Source: Candidatus Tidjanibacter gallistercoris (GTDB taxonomy: Bacteria; Bacteroidota; Bacteroidia; Bacteroidales; Rikenellaceae). Taken from it: a DNA stretch of 64,000 nt. Positions 1,217 through 9,603 of this stretch are shown here, one piece after another. The notes below the pieces were generated by a model, which was given only the letters and a program-made list of their open reading frames with translations, had not been told where the DNA came from and did not search any database. The position numbers were made by a program, and so were the translations under genes. Numbering within the stretch: position 1 is the stretch's first letter; each line of letters starts with the position of its first letter. The stretch covers positions 1 to 64,000 of the forward strand of contig DXFY01000045.1 of assembly GCA_019114205.1 (NCBI GenBank), given 5' to 3'.

Positions 1217-1461
1217 CACAACTCCGTACCGGCGAGGGAATGCACTGCGGCAACATTGCATTTTTGTTACGGCGACCGGACAGGCAGCCGTCCGGTCGTG
1301 CCGGACGGCACGATACGGCCGTTCCCAACATTTCATAACGCGCTACACACATGTACGTTACAAGTTACAAATCCCTCTGTATCGTTGTAACATTTTCGTA
1401 ACACGAACGTAAACGGTGCGTAAATGCGTCTCGATAGCTTTGCGGCGACAAACCGAACGAG
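1217..1461. other. Regulatory intergenic region before the porin
   Basis: No gene is seen. The region holds the direct repeat GTTACAAGTTACAA at 1357-1370, followed by the PHO-box-like array and promoter annotated separately. Several TGTAAC/GTTACA words occur on both strands within 70 bp, which suggests dense regulator binding. Confidence 0.6.
1386..1442 (+). promoter_or_regulatory. PHO-box-like repeat array with -7 element
   Basis: Four heptamers, TGTAACA, CGTAACA, CGTAAAC and CGTAAAT, start at 1386, 1397, 1408 and 1419. They are spaced exactly 11 bp apart (7-bp unit plus 4-bp gap). The -7 element TAGCTTTG (1435-1442) follows, and no TTTG-type -33 box is present where it would be expected. 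In E. coli, PhoB binds 7-bp direct repeats at 11-bp spacing in place of the -35 box. The same layout here, in front of porin-pst-phoBR, is strong contextual evidence for control by the PhoB encoded downstream. Confidence 0.75.
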
Positions 1462-2718
1462 ATGACACGACGCACGAAAGCTGCAATCCTTCTCGCCGCA
1501 CTGCTGGCCGTCCATAGCGGGGTACAGGCGGCGCCGGACGGAAAAGAGGACCGGGAAGAGAAAAAACGCGAAGCCCCGGCTTCCGACAAGGGCAAACTGA
1601 AAATATCCGGTTACCTGCAACCGCAGTTCCAATGGGGCGAACGCGACGCCGCACTCAAGGTGGGTACGGAGAACGAAAACCCGACGGAATCCTTCAACCG
1701 CTTCGGGCTGCGCCGCGGTCACCTCAAATTCGCCTACGACTACAAGACGGTCGCGGCGGTAGTGCAAATCGACGTCAGCACGGAAAAGGGCGTCATCCTG
1801 AAAGACGCCTACATCAATGTGCAGGAACCGTGGCTGCGGACGTTCGGCATCCGGGCCGGCGTATTCAACCGTCCCTTCGGCCTCGAAATCGAACTCTCCT
1901 CTTCGGTACGCGAAACCCCCGAACGCGCATACATCTTCCCGATGCTCTTTCCCGACGAACGCGACTTCGGCGCCATGTTCACGGTACAGGCGCCGGAAGA
2001 CTCCCCGTGGCGCATCGTCGCCCTCCAGGCGGGCCTCTTCTCCGGCAACGGCATCAGCCGGGACAACGACAGCCGCAAGGACTTCATCGGCCATCTCTCC
2101 TTCGGCGACGAGTTCGACGACTTCTCTTTCCGGGCCGGGGCATCGTATTACCGCGGCGGCGTCCGGCAGGGAACCGGCACCGTCCACACGATGACCGACG
2201 GCGGTTTCCGCACGGACACCGACCCGGCCAACAAGGGCCGCTACGCCAAACGGGAATACATCGGCTTCGACGCCTGCATCCACTTCGAGAGCGACTGGGG
2301 TACGACCACCCTGCGGGGCGAATACCTCTTCGGCACGCAGCCCGGCACGCAAACCTCCGGCAAGAGTCCCGACTCGGCCGCACTGCCCGCATCGGACACC
2401 TACATCCGGCCGGTTCGGGGCGGTTACGTCCTGCTCGCCCACGACATCGAAGATACGCCCTTTTCGCTGGTAGCCAAATACGACGTCTACGACCCCAACA
2501 CGAAGGTATCGGGCAATGCGCTCGGGACGGGCGAGACGGGCGTCACCGACGCGATGCGCACGGCTTTCGGCTTCGGTGCCACGTGGCACATCATGAAGGG
2601 GCTGAAGCTCACCGCCTACTACGACATCGTACGCAACGAAACGAGCACGGCGCTCGACGGTTTCGCCTCCGACCTGAAGGACGACATGTTCACCCTCCGA
2701 CTGCAATACAAGTTCTGA
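1462..2718 (+). CDS. Phosphate-selective porin (OprO/OprP family)
   Basis: A 418-residue outer-membrane beta-barrel. It has a signal peptide (hydrophobic residues about 8-20, cleavage near VQA-AP), then a short charged linker, then GYLQPQFQWG, the typical opening strand of the Porin_O_P family. The chain alternates polar and aromatic residues and ends in F (LQYKF), the usual last barrel strand. Such porins pass phosphate or other anions across the outer membrane. Its place directly behind the PHO-box promoter and 31 bp before pstS suggests it is the outer-membrane entry step for the Pst system. The substrate is inferred from context; a polyphosphate or general anion channel is also possible. 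Confidence 0.88.
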   Translation: MTRRTKAAILLAALLAVHSGVQAAPDGKEDREEKKREAPASDKGKLKISGYLQPQFQWGERDAALKVGTENENPTESFNRFGLRRGHLKFAYDYKTVAAVVQIDVSTEKGVILKDAYINVQEPWLRTFGIRAGVFNRPFGLEIELSSSVRETPERAYIFPMLFPDERDFGAMFTVQAPEDSPWRIVALQAGLFSGNGISRDNDSRKDFIGHLSFGDEFDDFSFRAGASYYRGGVRQGTGTVHTMTDGGFRTDTDPANKGRYAKREYIGFDACIHFESDWGTTTLRGEYLFGTQPGTQTSGKSPDSAALPASDTYIRPVRGGYVLLAHDIEDTPFSLVAKYDVYDPNTKVSGNALGTGETGVTDAMRTAFGFGATWHIMKGLKLTAYYDIVRNETSTALDGFASDLKDDMFTLRLQYKF

Positions 2719-2749: not shown

Positions 2750-3577
2750 ATGAAGACCATGAAAAAGTTCATGCTTGCGGCCGCCCTCCTGCTGACAGGG
2801 TTCGCAACGGCCAGCGCACAGAAAATCAAAGGTTCGGACACCGTACTTCCCCTCTCCCAAAAAGAGGCCGAGGAGTACATGAAAGTCAATCCGTCGGCCA
2901 CAATTACCGTAACGGGCGGCGGCAGCGGCGTAGGCATCTCGGCCCTGATGGAGGGTACGACCGACATCGCCCAGGCTTCGCGCCGCATGAAGTTCGACGA
3001 GAAACAGAAAATCCAGAAAGAGGGCGACAAGGTGAAGGAAACCGTCATCGCCTACGACGCCCTCGCCGTCGTGGTACATCCCTCCAATCCGGTCACCGAC
3101 CTCACCCGCGAGCAGCTCGAAGGCATCTTCACGGGCCGCATAACCAACTGGAAAGAGGTGGGCGGCCCCGACATGAAAATTGTCCCCTACTCGCGCGAGA
3201 CCTCTTCGGGCACCTACGAGTTCTTCAAGGAGAGCGTCCTGCGTAACCGCAACTACATGAACGGCATCATGAGCATGCCGGCCACGGGGGCCATCATCCA
3301 GAGCATCAGTCAGACCAAGGGCGGCATCGGATACGTGGGGCTCGCCTACCTCAACGACAACGTGAAGGCCGTCCACGTATCCTACGACGGCGGCAAGAGC
3401 TTCACCGCCCCGTCGGTGGCCAACGCCAAAAACGGCAGCTACCCCATCGTCCGGCCGCTCTACTACTATTACATGGCGCACTCCGAAAAGACGGTGAAAC
3501 CTTTCGTGGACTACATCCTCTCCCCCGCGGGACAGAACATCGTCCGGGAAATAGGCTTCGTCCCCGTAAGCGAATAA
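2750..3577 (+). CDS. pstS: Phosphate ABC transporter, substrate-binding protein PstS
   Basis: A 275-residue periplasmic phosphate-binding protein. The signal peptide occupies residues 1-23 (cleavage near ASA-QK). The mature protein shows the PstS phosphate loop words GSDTVLP, TGGGSGVG and SRETSSGTYEF. The block LTREQLEGIF...TNWKEVGGPD is diagnostic of the family. It is short compared with proteobacterial PstS (about 320 residues), as is usual for the compact Bacteroidota form. It captures phosphate delivered through the upstream porin and passes it to PstCA. A second ATG nine bases downstream could also be the start. It is the first gene of the transporter proper. Confidence 0.95.
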   Translation: MKTMKKFMLAAALLLTGFATASAQKIKGSDTVLPLSQKEAEEYMKVNPSATITVTGGGSGVGISALMEGTTDIAQASRRMKFDEKQKIQKEGDKVKETVIAYDALAVVVHPSNPVTDLTREQLEGIFTGRITNWKEVGGPDMKIVPYSRETSSGTYEFFKESVLRNRNYMNGIMSMPATGAIIQSISQTKGGIGYVGLAYLNDNVKAVHVSYDGGKSFTAPSVANAKNGSYPIVRPLYYYYMAHSEKTVKPFVDYILSPAGQNIVREIGFVPVSE

Positions 3578-3628
3578 ACGGCCGGCAAACCGGGCGGCGG
3601 CCCCATGCCGCCGCCCCATCCGATTCCC

Positions 3629-4837
3629 ATGAAGAAGTTAAGGAAAATACTCGAACGCACGATAGAAGGCATCTTCACCGTCAGCGGAGCCGTGACGACC
3701 GTCACCATCCTGCTCATCGTGGTGTTCCTCTTCCGCGAAGGGCTCGGACTGTTCGGCAGTCCGGCGGTGGAGAAGGGCTACCTGCTCTGCGTCAATACCG
3801 CCAACACGACGGCGCATCTGGACTCCCGGCAAATCATGGACATCTTCGACTACCGAACCGAAAACTGGGAACAGGTCGGGGGGCCGGACGAGGCCATCGT
3901 CCCGTTCCGCTTCGAGGAGGTATTCGACCGCTACCCGGAGGAGGCCTTCGGAGAGGATTACGAACTGCTGCCCCAGCGACTGGGCGAGGTCATCGCCTCG
4001 ACACCCGGCATCATCGCCTTCATCCCCGACCAATACGTCCCGGACGGAATGCCCGGAGTGAAAATCCTGCGCAGCGACCGCATCACCCCCGCCGACTTCT
4101 TCGGGGGACGCCAATGGATGCCCACCGCCACCCCCGCCCCGCAGTTCGGCGTGCTTCCGCTAATCCTGGGGACGCTGCTGGTCAGCTTCGTGGCAATCCT
4201 CATCGCCCTTCCGTTAGGACTGGGCGTGGCCATCTACATGTCGGAGCTGGCAGGCGAACGGATGCGCAAAATCCTCAAACCGACCATCGAACTGCTGGCG
4301 GGCATTCCCTCGGTGGTGTACGGATTCTTCGGACTGGTGGTGCTCGTACCGCTGATACAGAAGACCTTCGGACTGGCGGTAGGCGAAACGGCCCTCGCCG
4401 GCAGCCTGATACTGGCCATCATGGCCTTGCCGACCATCATCACCGTCGCCGAGGACGCCATGCGCGGCACCCCGCGCGCCATGCGCGAAGCGAGCCTCGC
4501 CCTGGGGGCCACACACTGGCAGACCATCTACCGCGTGGTTATCCCCTACGCCGGTTCGGGCATTTCCGCCGCCGTGGTGCTGGGCATCGGCCGCGCGATA
4601 GGGGAAACGATGGCGGTACTCATGGTGACGGGCAATGCCGCCGTGATGCCCCGCTCGCTCTTCGAACCGGTGCGCACCATTCCCGCCACCATCGCGGCCG
4701 AGCTGGGCGAAGCCCCCGCCGGAGGCGCACACTACCAGTCGCTGTTCATGCTGGGATGCATCCTCTTCATCATCACGATGATAATCAGCATCACGGCCGA
4801 AATGATTTCCAAACGACAAACCAACAAGGGACTATGA
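3629..4837 (+). CDS. pstC: Phosphate ABC transporter permease PstC with PstS-like insert
   Basis: An inner-membrane permease of 402 residues, starting at the ATG at 3629 (MKKLRKIL) rather than the proline-rich upstream ATG at 3605. TM1 is about residues 17-37. Residues about 49-155 form an extracytoplasmic insert resembling part of PstS: QIMDIF...TENWEQVGGPD and a later GIIAFIPDQY block match the corresponding stretches of the neighbouring binding protein. The binding-protein-dependent permease core with its other TM helices runs from about 175 to the end and includes the EAA-type loop REASLALGATHWQT. The stop overlaps the pstA start (ATGA). It pairs with PstA to form the phosphate channel. 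Confidence 0.93.
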   Translation: MKKLRKILERTIEGIFTVSGAVTTVTILLIVVFLFREGLGLFGSPAVEKGYLLCVNTANTTAHLDSRQIMDIFDYRTENWEQVGGPDEAIVPFRFEEVFDRYPEEAFGEDYELLPQRLGEVIASTPGIIAFIPDQYVPDGMPGVKILRSDRITPADFFGGRQWMPTATPAPQFGVLPLILGTLLVSFVAILIALPLGLGVAIYMSELAGERMRKILKPTIELLAGIPSVVYGFFGLVVLVPLIQKTFGLAVGETALAGSLILAIMALPTIITVAEDAMRGTPRAMREASLALGATHWQTIYRVVIPYAGSGISAAVVLGIGRAIGETMAVLMVTGNAAVMPRSLFEPVRTIPATIAAELGEAPAGGAHYQSLFMLGCILFIITMIISITAEMISKRQTNKGL

Positions 4838-5691
4838 CGGGAAAAAGAACCAATCAGCGCATCGCCTTCTGGATATTCCGCATCCTGGGGCTCATCGTCG
4901 TGGGGATACTGTTCTGGATACTCGGCTTCATCGTCTGGCACGGGGCCGGCGTCATCGACTGGAAGTTCCTCACCACGGCACCGACCGACGGCATGACCGG
5001 CGGCGGCATCTTCCCCGCCATCGTCGGAACGTGCTGCCTCATCGTGGGCAGCATGGCGGTGGCCTTCCCGCTCGGCGTCATGTCGGCCATCTACACCACC
5101 GAATATGCCGGCAACGGGAAAATCGTCCGCTTCATCCGCATCATGACCAACAACCTCGGCAGCATCCCCTCCATCATCTTCGGACTGTTCGGCATGGCGC
5201 TCTTCGTCAATGCCCTCGGCTTCGGGGACTCCATCATCGCCGGTTCGTTCACCCTCGGCCTGCTCGCGCTGCCGCTGGTCATCCGCACCACGGAAGAGGC
5301 GCTCAGGGCCGTTCCAGACTCCTACCGCACGGGGAGCCTCGCGCTCGGCGCCACCAAACTCCAGACCATACGGCGCGTGGTGCTGCCCACGGCCTTCCCC
5401 AACATCACGACGGGCCTCATCCTCGCCATCGGGCGCGTGTCGGGCGAAACGGCGCCGATACTCTTCACCGCGGCGGCCTACTTCCTGCCCAAGCTGCCGA
5501 CGAGCATCTACGACCAGGTCATGGCGCTCCCCTACCACCTCTACGTGATAGCCACGAGCGGTACCGACCTGGAGGCCACCCGCCCCATAGCCTACGGTAC
5601 GGCGCTGGTGCTTATCGTCATCGTGCTGGCCATGAACCTGCTCGCCTCGTTCCTCAGGCGCCATTTCGGTAAAAAAGTCAAAACGAACTGA
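4834..5691 (+). CDS. pstA: Phosphate ABC transporter permease PstA
   Basis: A 285-residue inner-membrane permease. The start is the ATG at 4834, which overlaps the pstC stop by four bases; the long upstream extension in the ORF track is out-of-frame reading of pstC. It begins with a TM helix (residues about 10-35) and shows five further TM segments. The cytoplasmic coupling loop reads [18 protein letters not shown], the region that contacts PstB. With PstC it forms the translocation path. Length and order fit the standard pstSCAB operon, and translational coupling with pstC is likely. Confidence 0.95.
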
Positions 5692-5698
5692 CAGCATT

Positions 5699-6445
5699 AT
5701 GATAGAAGCGAAAAACATAGATTTCCATTACGGCGATTTCCATGCGCTGAAAAACATCAGCATGACCATGGAAAGCAACACCGTGACGGCCTTCATCGGC
5801 CCGTCGGGCTGCGGCAAGTCCACCTTCCTGCGGCTGTTCAACCGGATGAACGACCTCATTCCCGGCGCACGCCTCACGGGGCAGTGCCTCGTGGACGGCA
5901 AAGACATCTACGCCAAAGGGGTGAACGTGGACGAGCTGCGCAAAAACGTGGGCATGGTGTTCCAGAAACCCAACCCCTTCCCCAAGTCGATATTCGAAAA
6001 CGTGGCCTACGGGCTGCGCGTGAACGGCGTCCGCGACCAAGCCTTCATCCGCCGGCGCGTGGAGGAATCGCTCGTGGGTGCGGCGCTTTGGGACGAGGTG
6101 AAGGACAAGCTCAAAAAGTCGGCCTACGAACTCTCCGGCGGGCAGCAGCAGCGGCTCTGCATCGCACGGGCCCTGGCCGTCTCGCCCTCCATCCTCCTCA
6201 TGGACGAACCCGCCTCGGCGCTCGACCCCATCTCGACATCCAAAATCGAAGAACTGATTCATTCGCTCAAGAAGGACTACACGATTGTCATCGTCACCCA
6301 CAACATGCAGCAGGCCGCACGGGTGAGCGACAAGACGGGATTCTTCATGCTGGGCGAACTGGTCGAATACAACGACACCAAGAAGATGTTCCTCAACCCG
6401 GAAAAGGTACAGACGCAGAACTACATCACCGGCCGGTTCGGTTAA
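5699..6445 (+). CDS. pstB: Phosphate ABC transporter ATP-binding protein PstB
   Basis: A 248-residue ABC ATPase powering phosphate import. Visible motifs are Walker [10 protein letters not shown], the PstB-typical [14 protein letters not shown] after the Q-loop, signature LSGGQQQR, Walker [14 protein letters not shown] and switch histidine VTHNMQQA. It starts seven bases after pstA, consistent with an operon. PstB is cytoplasmic, sits on PstCA, and in the Pho signalling model also relays transporter state through PhoU to PhoR. Confidence 0.96.
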
Positions 6446-6465: not shown

Positions 6466-7140
6466 ATGGCAATGAAACATACGGAAAAAGAGCTGACGCT
6501 CCTGCGCGAGGAGGTCAGCCAGATGTGGGGGCTGGTACTCTCGCAACTCGAAAAGACCCGGCAGGCCTACCTGAACGACGATGCGGAACTCGCCCGCGAA
6601 GTGGCGAGCCGCGAGAAACGGGTGGACACCTACGAACTCAAGATAGACAGCGACTGCGAAAACTACATCGCCCTGTTCGGGCCGGTCGCCGTAGACCTGC
6701 GGCTGGTGCTCTCGCTCATCAAAATCAGCGGTACGCTGGAACGCATCGCAGACCTGGCCGACGGCATCGCCCGCCACGTAATAACGGGCGAATGCACCGC
6801 ACTGCCGGCTGCGTTCAAAGAGGAACTGCGCATCGGCACGATGTTCGATACGGTCATTTCGATGCTGTCGGACAGCTTCGTGGCGCTCGACTCGGAGAAC
6901 ACCAAGCTCTCCGGACGCATTCTCGCCAAGGACGAAACGGTGGACGAAATCTACCACGACGACATCCGGCTGCTTTCCGAATACGTCCAGCAGGAGCCGC
7001 AGGGAGCGCGGTGCGCGATGGAAACGCTGCTCATCGCCCGCAAAATCGAACGCATCGGCGACCATTGCAGCAACATCGTGGAGGAAATCGTCTTTTACAT
7101 AGATGCCAAGATACTCAAGCACAACAGGAACGAAGAATAA
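6466..7140 (+). CDS. phoU: Phosphate signalling regulator PhoU
   Basis: A 224-residue all-helical protein with two PhoU repeats (first half around REVASREKRVDTYELKIDSD, second around KDETVDEIYHDD). The acidic E/DxxxD pattern of each bundle that binds metal is visible. The start is the ATG at 6466 (MAMKHTEKEL); the rest of the listed 418-residue ORF is an out-of-frame reading of pstB. PhoU damps the Pst transporter and keeps PhoR off when phosphate is plentiful. It follows pstB by 20 bp. A TATCTTTG promoter element lies just after its stop, so phoBR may also be expressed separately. Confidence 0.93.
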   Translation: MAMKHTEKELTLLREEVSQMWGLVLSQLEKTRQAYLNDDAELAREVASREKRVDTYELKIDSDCENYIALFGPVAVDLRLVLSLIKISGTLERIADLADGIARHVITGECTALPAAFKEELRIGTMFDTVISMLSDSFVALDSENTKLSGRILAKDETVDEIYHDDIRLLSEYVQQEPQGARCAMETLLIARKIERIGDHCSNIVEEIVFYIDAKILKHNRNEE

Positions 7141-7177: not shown

Positions 7178-7870
7178 ATGGACGAAAGGATACTCGTCGT
7201 AGACGACGAAAAGGACATTTGCGAAATACTGGGCTTCAACCTTTCCAACGAAGGGTACCGGGTGGACACGGCCACTTCCGCCGAAGAAGCCCTCCGGACG
7301 CTGACCCCCGAACACGCGCTCATACTGCTCGACGTCATGATGGGCGGCATGTCGGGTTACAAGATGGCCGAAAAGCTCCGGCACGAGGGCAACCGGATAC
7401 CCATCATCTTCCTGACGGCCAGGGACACGGAGAACGACATGCTGACGGGATTTTCCGTCGGAGGCGACGACTACATCTCCAAGCCTTTCTCCATCAAGGA
7501 AGTAGTGGCGCGGGTGAAAGCCGTTCTCAAACGCAGCGCCGGACAGATGGCCGCAGCAGGACAGCGCGAGGGAAAACTGTCGTTCGGCGACTTCACCATC
7601 GACTTCGACACGAAAGAGGTTGTCATCGGCCGCGAGGCCATCCCGCTGACACGCACCGAATTCGACATCCTCACCACGCTCGCGTCCAATCCGGCCCGCA
7701 TCTTCAGCCGCGAAGACCTGATAGACCGCATCTGGAAAGACGCTCCCTTCGTGACGGAACGCACCGTGGACGTCCACATAACGCGGCTGCGCAAGAAACT
7801 GGGTGACAAGGCTTCGCTCATTTCGAGCCGGCCGGGGTACGGATACCGATTCAACTGTACGGAAGCATGA
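7178..7870 (+). CDS. phoB: Response regulator, PhoB/OmpR family
   Basis: A 230-residue two-domain transcription factor. The receiver domain (residues about 3-118) has the acidic pair DD9-10, phospho-acceptor Asp52 in ILLDVMM, and the conserved KPF lysine. The C-terminal winged helix (about 135-228) has the OmpR/PhoB features LTRTEFDIL and TVDVHITRLRKKLGD. The start chosen is the ATG at 7178 (MDERILVVDDE); the listed upstream 25 residues are untranslated leader. The gene overlaps phoR by four bases. Context names it PhoB; it probably binds the repeat array at 1386. Confidence 0.9.
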   Translation: MDERILVVDDEKDICEILGFNLSNEGYRVDTATSAEEALRTLTPEHALILLDVMMGGMSGYKMAEKLRHEGNRIPIIFLTARDTENDMLTGFSVGGDDYISKPFSIKEVVARVKAVLKRSAGQMAAAGQREGKLSFGDFTIDFDTKEVVIGREAIPLTRTEFDILTTLASNPARIFSREDLIDRIWKDAPFVTERTVDVHITRLRKKLGDKASLISSRPGYGYRFNCTEA

Positions 7871-9603
7871 AACCGACATTCCAGCGGAAGCTCACGCTCA
7901 GCTTCCTCGTCATATTCGTCATATTCACCGCCGGTGTGGTGGTATTCGAGCAGCGACAGGCACGGCGTTACCGTACCGAAGCGCTGGAGGAACGGCTCGA
8001 CGCCTATGCGGAGATGATACACGCATGCGCAGCGGGCAACGCTCCCGCGGGCGAAGACCTGCGGGCGCTGCTCCCCCTGCTGCCGAAAGAGCTGCGCCTG
8101 ACGGTCATCGGGGCCGACGGCACGGTCGTGTACGACAACCTCTTCGCCCGGCCGGGCGAACTCGACAACCATGCCGGACGGCCGGAAGTGGCCGGGGCAC
8201 GGCAGACGGGCGCCGCCTACGACATCCGCACTTCGGCTTCCAACCAGGTGCCGTACATCTATTACGCCAAATACTTCGGCAACGACTTCGTGCGCGTGGC
8301 GCTGCCTTACGACATCCGGGTGAAACACTTCCTCCAGCCCGACAACGGCTTCCTCTACTTCATCGTCCTCCTGTTCGCCGCAGGATTGCTCGTCATCCAC
8401 TACGTGGGGAGCCGGTTCGGCCGGTCGGTCAGACGGCTCCGGGACTTCGCGGCCAAGACGGACGAAGGCGACGCGGACATCAACATCGCCCGGTTCCCCG
8501 GCGACGAGCTGGGCGAAATCGGCCGCCGCATAGCCGGAAGCTACAAAAGTCTGAAAGAGAGCGAGCAAACGCTCGTCCGCGAACGCGAAAAGCTGCTTCA
8601 GCACGTGCACAGTTCGGCCGAAGGAGTGTGTTTCTTCCGGCCGGACTGCTCGGTAGAATTTTACAACGGCCTGTTCCTGCAATACATGAATACCATCAGC
8701 GACGTTGTGGTGAGCGACAACCCCGCCCTTCTGACGCTCGACGTATTCGAACCGGTCCGGCGCTTCCTCGCATCCGGGTCGGGCGAACAGTATTTCGAGA
8801 CGCACCTTCAGGACCAGGGCAGGGAGTTCCTGCTACGGGTGAACGTGTTCGACGACAAGAGCTTCGAGGTGGTATTCAACGACATCACCCGACAAGAAAA
8901 GACGCGCCGCCTCAAACAGGAAATGACCGGCAACATCGCGCACGAGTTGCGGACACCCGTCACAAGCATCCGCGGTTATCTCGAAACGGTGCTCGAAACA
9001 CCCCTGCCCCCCGAAAAGAAAGAGGACTTCATCCGCAAGGCCTACCGCCAGACGCTTTCCCTTTCGGAACTCATCCGCGACATGAGCCTGCTCACGAAAA
9101 TCGAGGATACGCCCGGTTCGTTCAATTTCGGCCGCGTGGAACTCCGGCCGGTCATCGGCCGGGTGGTGGCCGAACTCGAACCGGCGCTCCGGGCCAAACG
9201 CATCGTCTTCGACGACGAGCTGCCGGAAGGCCTCGCGGTAAACGGCAACGAAAACCTCCTCTACTCGGTATTCCGCAACCTGACCGACAACGTCATCAAC
9301 CACGCGGGCGAGGAGGTGCGCATCACCGTCTGCAAACGGGGCGAACGCAACGGCTACGTCTATATCTCGTTCGCCGACAACGGATGCGGCGTCGGAGACC
9401 GCAGCAAGCTGAACCGGCTTTTCGAACGGTTTTACCGCCTCGACGAGGGCCGCACGCGCGATGCGGGCGGTTCGGGACTCGGACTGTCGATTGTCAAAAA
9501 CATCGTCAGCCTGCACGGAGGTACCATCACCGTGAAGGAACGCCGCGAAGGAGGCCTCGAATTTCTTTTCAGCCTGCCGACAGCGAACGAAATCGTCCAA
9601 TGA
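7867..9603 (+). CDS. phoR: Sensor histidine kinase, PhoR-like
   Basis: A 578-residue membrane kinase. TM1 is about residues 8-28, followed by an extracytoplasmic sensing domain to about 158, TM2 (FIVLLFAAGLLVIHYVG), and a HAMP-like linker. A PAS-like segment leads to the HisKA domain, with phospho-acceptor His359 in NIAHELRTPV. The HATPase domain shows the N box NENLLYSVFRNLTDN and the G boxes DNGCGVGD and GSGLGLSIVKN. It is translationally coupled to phoB (ATGA overlap). Context supports a PhoR role, answering to PstSCAB-PhoU. E. coli PhoR lacks this large periplasmic domain, so it may sense something additional. I saw no obvious terminator after it. Confidence 0.88.
   Translation: MKPTFQRKLTLSFLVIFVIFTAGVVVFEQRQARRYRTEALEERLDAYAEMIHACAAGNAPAGEDLRALLPLLPKELRLTVIGADGTVVYDNLFARPGELDNHAGRPEVAGARQTGAAYDIRTSASNQVPYIYYAKYFGNDFVRVALPYDIRVKHFLQPDNGFLYFIVLLFAAGLLVIHYVGSRFGRSVRRLRDFAAKTDEGDADINIARFPGDELGEIGRRIAGSYKSLKESEQTLVREREKLLQHVHSSAEGVCFFRPDCSVEFYNGLFLQYMNTISDVVVSDNPALLTLDVFEPVRRFLASGSGEQYFETHLQDQGREFLLRVNVFDDKSFEVVFNDITRQEKTRRLKQEMTGNIAHELRTPVTSIRGYLETVLETPLPPEKKEDFIRKAYRQTLSLSELIRDMSLLTKIEDTPGSFNFGRVELRPVIGRVVAELEPALRAKRIVFDDELPEGLAVNGNENLLYSVFRNLTDNVINHAGEEVRITVCKRGERNGYVYISFADNGCGVGDRSKLNRLFERFYRLDEGRTRDAGGSGLGLSIVKNIVSLHGGTITVKERREGGLEFLFSLPTANEIVQ

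Follow-up and report, generated by a model that had tools for sequence, protein, structure and literature searches.

The PHO-box promoter as such is already known. At E. coli pstS, which PhoB activates through two PHO boxes, the repeats TGTCATA aaac TGTCATA ttcc TTACATA taac TGTCACC are followed after 9 bp by TATTTT (checked in E. coli genomes), which we take to be the -10 box. PhoB sites elsewhere in E. coli include TGTAATA-N4-CGTAAAC at phoE and TGTAACC-N4-TGTAACA at mglB, and structural models there support a tightly constrained distance from the pho box to the core promoter (PMC10294691). In Bacteroidota the core promoter box has the consensus TAnnTTTG and lies at -12 to -5 (PMC9723704). 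In Bacteroides fragilis, pstC expression requires PhoB, and EMSA shows PhoB binding to the pstC promoter; the fragment used was 512 bp long and the box within it was left undefined (PMC3547664). Among the papers searched, the nearest published motif in the phylum is that of Riemerella anatipestifer PhoP, obtained by DAP-seq, with the core TTTAACA (PMC9603813). We found no PHO box defined for Bacteroidales in the literature searched, which comprised open-licence papers and so leaves such an absence unproven; measured against those papers, four things described below are new: a PHO consensus for Bacteroidales, its linkage to TAnnTTTG at a fixed distance, the set of regulon members, and the switch between TGTAA and TGTCA.

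We analyzed a 64,000-nucleotide stretch of the genome of Candidatus Tidjanibacter gallistercoris (hereafter the window), in which an intergenic region ahead of a porin-pstS-pstC-pstA-pstB-phoU-phoB-phoR operon carries the following elements:

1357..1370, + strand: direct repeat GTTACAAGTTACAA (GTTACAA/GTTACAA) with a 7-bp period (from the sequence; partly kept in the nearest relative only)
1386..1425, + strand: predicted PhoB-site array, four heptamers at exact 11-bp spacing (from the sequence; kept in 82 related promoters)
1426..1434, + strand: spacer GCGTCTCGA, 9 bp from array to -7 box, its length kept and its sequence not (TAA at -14 in 62/82 promoters; also 9 bp in E. coli pstS)
1435..1442, + strand: TAGCTTTG, a Bacteroidota -7 box of the form TAnnTTTG (sequence read)

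The four heptamers, TGTAACA (1386-1392), CGTAACA (1397-1403), CGTAAAC (1408-1414) and CGTAAAT (1419-1425), lie to the base where a sequence-only reading of this DNA had placed them, as direct repeats with 4-bp spacers and thus an exact 11-bp period, and the 9-bp gap that it had reported before the -7 box was likewise recovered at 1426-1434. With the box at 1435-1442, transcription is predicted to start near 1447. The direct repeat further upstream was real, but its distance to the array proved to be 15 bp and not the 16 bp first given. We rejected this repeat as a member of the array on account of its 7-bp period and its partial retention, confined to the nearest relative, and it probably lies outside the phased element.

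The operon itself reads as follows:

1462..2718, + strand: Porin_O_P outer-membrane porin, first gene of the operon (PF07396, E 3.3e-06; orthologs before pstS in most relatives)
2750..3577, + strand: pstS, phosphate-binding protein (PF12849; synteny)
3605..4837, + strand: pstC permease (PF00528)
4834..5691, + strand: pstA permease (PF00528)
5699..6445, + strand: pstB ATPase (PF00005)
6466..7140, + strand: phoU (PF01895)
7178..7870, + strand: phoB response regulator with recognition helix ERTVDVHITRLRKKL (PF00072 and PF00486)
7867..9603, + strand: phoR sensor kinase (PF00512 and PF02518)

Its gene order is kept across the family, the nearest named relatives being Tidjanibacter and other Rikenellaceae. 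In the nearest relatives phoB and phoR adjoin phoU; in many others they were not found within the stretch examined.

Set against E. coli pstS, the locus shares the four 11-bp repeats, the 9-bp gap and the box that follows, with TAGCTTTG in the place of TATTTT. It differs in the repeat core (TGTAA here, TGTCA in E. coli), in the box (TAnnTTTG instead of TATTTT) and in a sigma factor that belongs to another phylum; the TGTCA consensus is not followed in the window's own genome. The phoE and mglB sites of E. coli are nearly identical to the window's repeats, and half-sites of the types TGTAAYA and CGTAAAC are among those bound by E. coli PhoB, although both sites are listed as two-repeat elements and stand before other genes with another core promoter (PMC10294691). 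B. fragilis offers the parallel of a Bacteroidales PhoB that binds and activates a pst promoter (PMC3547664). Riemerella PhoP is likewise a PhoP/PhoB-type regulator of a Bacteroidota species with a matching half-site, but it belongs to the Flavobacteriales and is reported to regulate pathogenicity widely, and the passages of that paper considered here describe no phased array joined to TAnnTTTG (PMC9603813). A phased repeat of this length joined to TAnnTTTG had been put forward as defining the PHO motif of this lineage: the join holds and is kept in relatives, whereas the length is unexceptional, since E. coli pstS also has four repeats and a 9-bp gap. The comparison suggests that the PhoB-to-promoter geometry of E. 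coli pstS persists in a phylum whose core promoter is of another type.

The array pattern is unique in the genome. The pattern YGTAAM-N5-YGTAAM, searched with zero mismatches, gave three matches in the window, all inside 1386-1425, and a three-repeat pattern allowing at most one mismatch matched the 2.03-Mb genome only at the array locus, with 0 matches for its reversed control; given the base composition, about 6e-7 runs of four YGTAAM in 11-bp phase would be expected in this genome.

We then asked how far this layout extends across Bacteroidales, collecting the sequence ahead of the operon's first gene, be it porin or pstS, in 32 genomes of the family, including the window, and at 80 named Bacteroidales loci; duplicates were dropped, and further loci from an order-wide pstC search were left out. 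The last TAnnTTTG before the gene was used with no further choice, which yielded 82 distinct promoters; in 22 of the 104 upstream regions (300 bp searched) no TAnnTTTG with enough sequence upstream of it was present. Measured from the T of TAnnTTTG, a TAA core starts at -14, -25, -36 and -47 in 62, 32, 58 and 45 of the 82 promoters, respectively, whereas all other offsets average 1.5, and the two highest of these, -58 and -69 (12 each), fall in the same phase. Independently of the box, 83 KTAAM pairs at 11 bp were counted where dinucleotide shuffles gave 3.0 (28-fold, z of about 46), with additional peaks at 22, 33 and 44 bp; the 82 promoters share descent, so that these counts are non-independent and the figures overstate significance, but the flanks have diverged, most spacer columns being low in information. 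Among TAA-bearing promoters, the commonest letters of the slots from -47 to -14 are [CT]TTAAC[AC], [TC]GTAACA, [CT][TG]TAAAA and [TC]GTAA[TC]A. At orthologous porin-pst loci, where a missing repeat had been named beforehand as the result that would speak against the array, Rikenellaceae and other Bacteroidales alike keep the repeat in its 11-bp phase and at 9 bp from TAnnTTTG. These data yield a PHO consensus and a promoter geometry, both open to testing, for an abundant gut order in which PhoB genetics and EMSA are already published. A few porin-less loci (L051, L061, L148 and L149) have 11-bp repeats upstream of pstS that are inverted relative to pst and do not stand 9 bp from a -7 box, an arrangement that counts against the explanation we favor below.

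Replacement of the -33 box, another claim of the initial reading, was borne out. Positions 1405-1434 contain neither TTTG nor TTG, and the -33 slot is filled in the window by the third repeat, CGTAAAC. Relative to the box, a TTG occupies -22 or -23 in 4 of the window's 8 remaining TAnnTTTG promoters and in only 2 of the 82 pst promoters, in 62 of which the repeats stand at the fixed distance of 9 bp. A constitutive -33/-7 promoter was rejected, the slot being without TTTG. Outside the window's lineage this slot is the weakest of the array (TAA in 32/82) and degenerate in many other Bacteroidales; E. coli pstS is likewise weakest in its third repeat, TTACATA.

The array is very probably the PHO box of the operon, bound by PhoB and controlled by phosphate, with the proximal PhoB replacing the -33 contact. 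The conservation and association data thereby support what the initial reading had proposed, namely that the PhoB encoded at 7178 binds here and recruits a Bacteroidota sigma factor. We infer binding, control and sigma contact along these lines: when phosphate is scarce, PhoR would phosphorylate PhoB, dimers of which would bind the four heptamers (two PHO boxes) head to tail on one helix face; the promoter-proximal PhoB, 9 bp from TAnnTTTG, would substitute for the missing -33 contact and recruit the housekeeping sigma factor; and the operon, phoB itself included, would be induced.

Further phosphate genes carry the same motif. Within the genus, exact three-repeat arrays occur in all six genomes that encode PstS and in none of the 17 that lack it, a split with a probability of 1e-5 if genomes are taken as independent, some of them being incomplete. 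The enrichment scan proposed at the outset placed the motif before porin, pst, TonB-receptor, ppk and phosphoesterase genes. A second Porin_O_P gene is preceded by arrays in the window's own genome (L192, C38:31247-31303) and in two relatives (L193, L188), the former reading TGTAACA atct TTTAACG ccgc TTTAACG acag GGTAAAT, then 9 bp and TTCTTTTG. Two repeats, 9 bp and TTCTTTTG or TTCCTTTG precede a TonB-dependent receptor in the same genome (L066, C73:27607) and in three relatives (L190, L191, L200); this receptor, which carries a CarboxypepD_reg domain, is a candidate for phosphate or organophosphate uptake. Boxes of two or three repeats stand before ppk (ppk1) in 5/5 genus genomes that have the gene (L204-L208), the window's own genome giving no match to ppk (PF02503), and in one relative the motif and its 9-bp gap precede a calcineurin-like phosphoesterase. 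Together with the array, the sites before the second porin, TonB receptor, ppk and phosphoesterase make up a predicted small Pho regulon, small because a scan of the window's genome for two repeats plus T...TTTG returned only 3 matches against 1 in the reversed control, hardly an enrichment. With two mismatches, the own-genome scan for two repeats plus TAnnTTTG gave 8 matches against 10 in the control and is informative only in its best matches. With the motif, Pho regulons of gut Bacteroidota can be predicted, TonB receptors, a second porin and ppk among their members.

A further line of evidence comes from the regulator. The PhoB recognition helix region reads ERTVDVHITRLRKKL in the window and DRTVDVHIRRLRKAL in E. 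coli (PDB chain 1gxp, retrieved from PDB sequences with a PhoB-like consensus query), with three positions differing; most Bacteroidales have T or A as the residue beside the conserved R-L-R; one termite-gut clade has G there, and E. coli shares R with one sister genome. In the three genomes whose helix reads VHIG, the repeats are TGTCATA or TGTCACA, with unchanged spacing and the 9-bp gap kept. One of these loci, a pstS promoter (L097), reads TGTCATA tttt TGTCATA cgat TTTCAAA agac CGTCAAA, 9 bp, TACCTTTG; at another (L255), four TGTCACA, 9 bp and TATCTTTG stand ahead of a pstC-like gene, and two more sites of this form (L252, L258) occur in the genome of L093. Repeats of the TGTCATA/TGTCACA type in the VHIG clade were also noted at L254/L095. 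Where the helix has VHIT or VHIA and an array can be recognized, the repeats are of the TGTAA type; a single VHIR genome has a mixture. A PhoB tree computed with the helix left out groups this VHIR genome with the three VHIG genomes in one clade, and the TGTCA switch therefore counts as one event; independent origins were not found. This joint change of repeats and helix is suggestive of PhoB as the binder. We tentatively propose, at somewhat less than an even chance, that the residue beside R-L-R contributes to the choice between A and C at base 4 of the heptamer, and that one clade rewrote its boxes from TGTAA to TGTCA under a fixed 11-bp/9-bp geometry. If true, a regulon would have been rewired in nature while its geometry stayed constant; the switch also allows PhoB specificity to be tested in a simple, naturally occurring case.

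The joint change bears on whether another OmpR-family response regulator, rather than the operon's own PhoB, binds the array. A tandem layout of 7 + 4 bp is common to regulators of this family, several of which are encoded per genome (giving many candidates at first look), and the ArcA motif resembles that of Riemerella PhoP (PMC9603813). Against such a regulator stand the position of phoB inside the operon, the recurrence of the motif before ppk, porin and phosphoesterase genes, and the one clade in which the repeats and the PhoB helix change together, and we consider it improbable.

Helically phased short A-runs upstream of a promoter can bend DNA, and on this general ground the phased TAA runs could instead form a structural element (curved DNA or UP-like) that strengthens the promoter with no specific activator involved. 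Their period is 11 and not about 10.5, however, non-A positions are kept (YG or T before TAA, C after it), and the clade with TGTCATA/TGTCACA retained the spacing while losing TAA, which makes this account very hard to sustain. Repression by PhoB, or an array serving autoregulation only, with activation from another upstream element, is just as remote: the site is close to the core promoter and PhoB can repress depending on position (PMC10294691), but in E. coli pstS the activating site has exactly this position, and pstC expression in B. fragilis needs PhoB (PMC3547664).

By eye, positions 1178-1217 of the window show a hairpin-like CCCTTCGC ... GCGAAGGG followed by TTTTC, which resembles a terminator for the gene upstream and would set the array apart as a separate promoter region.
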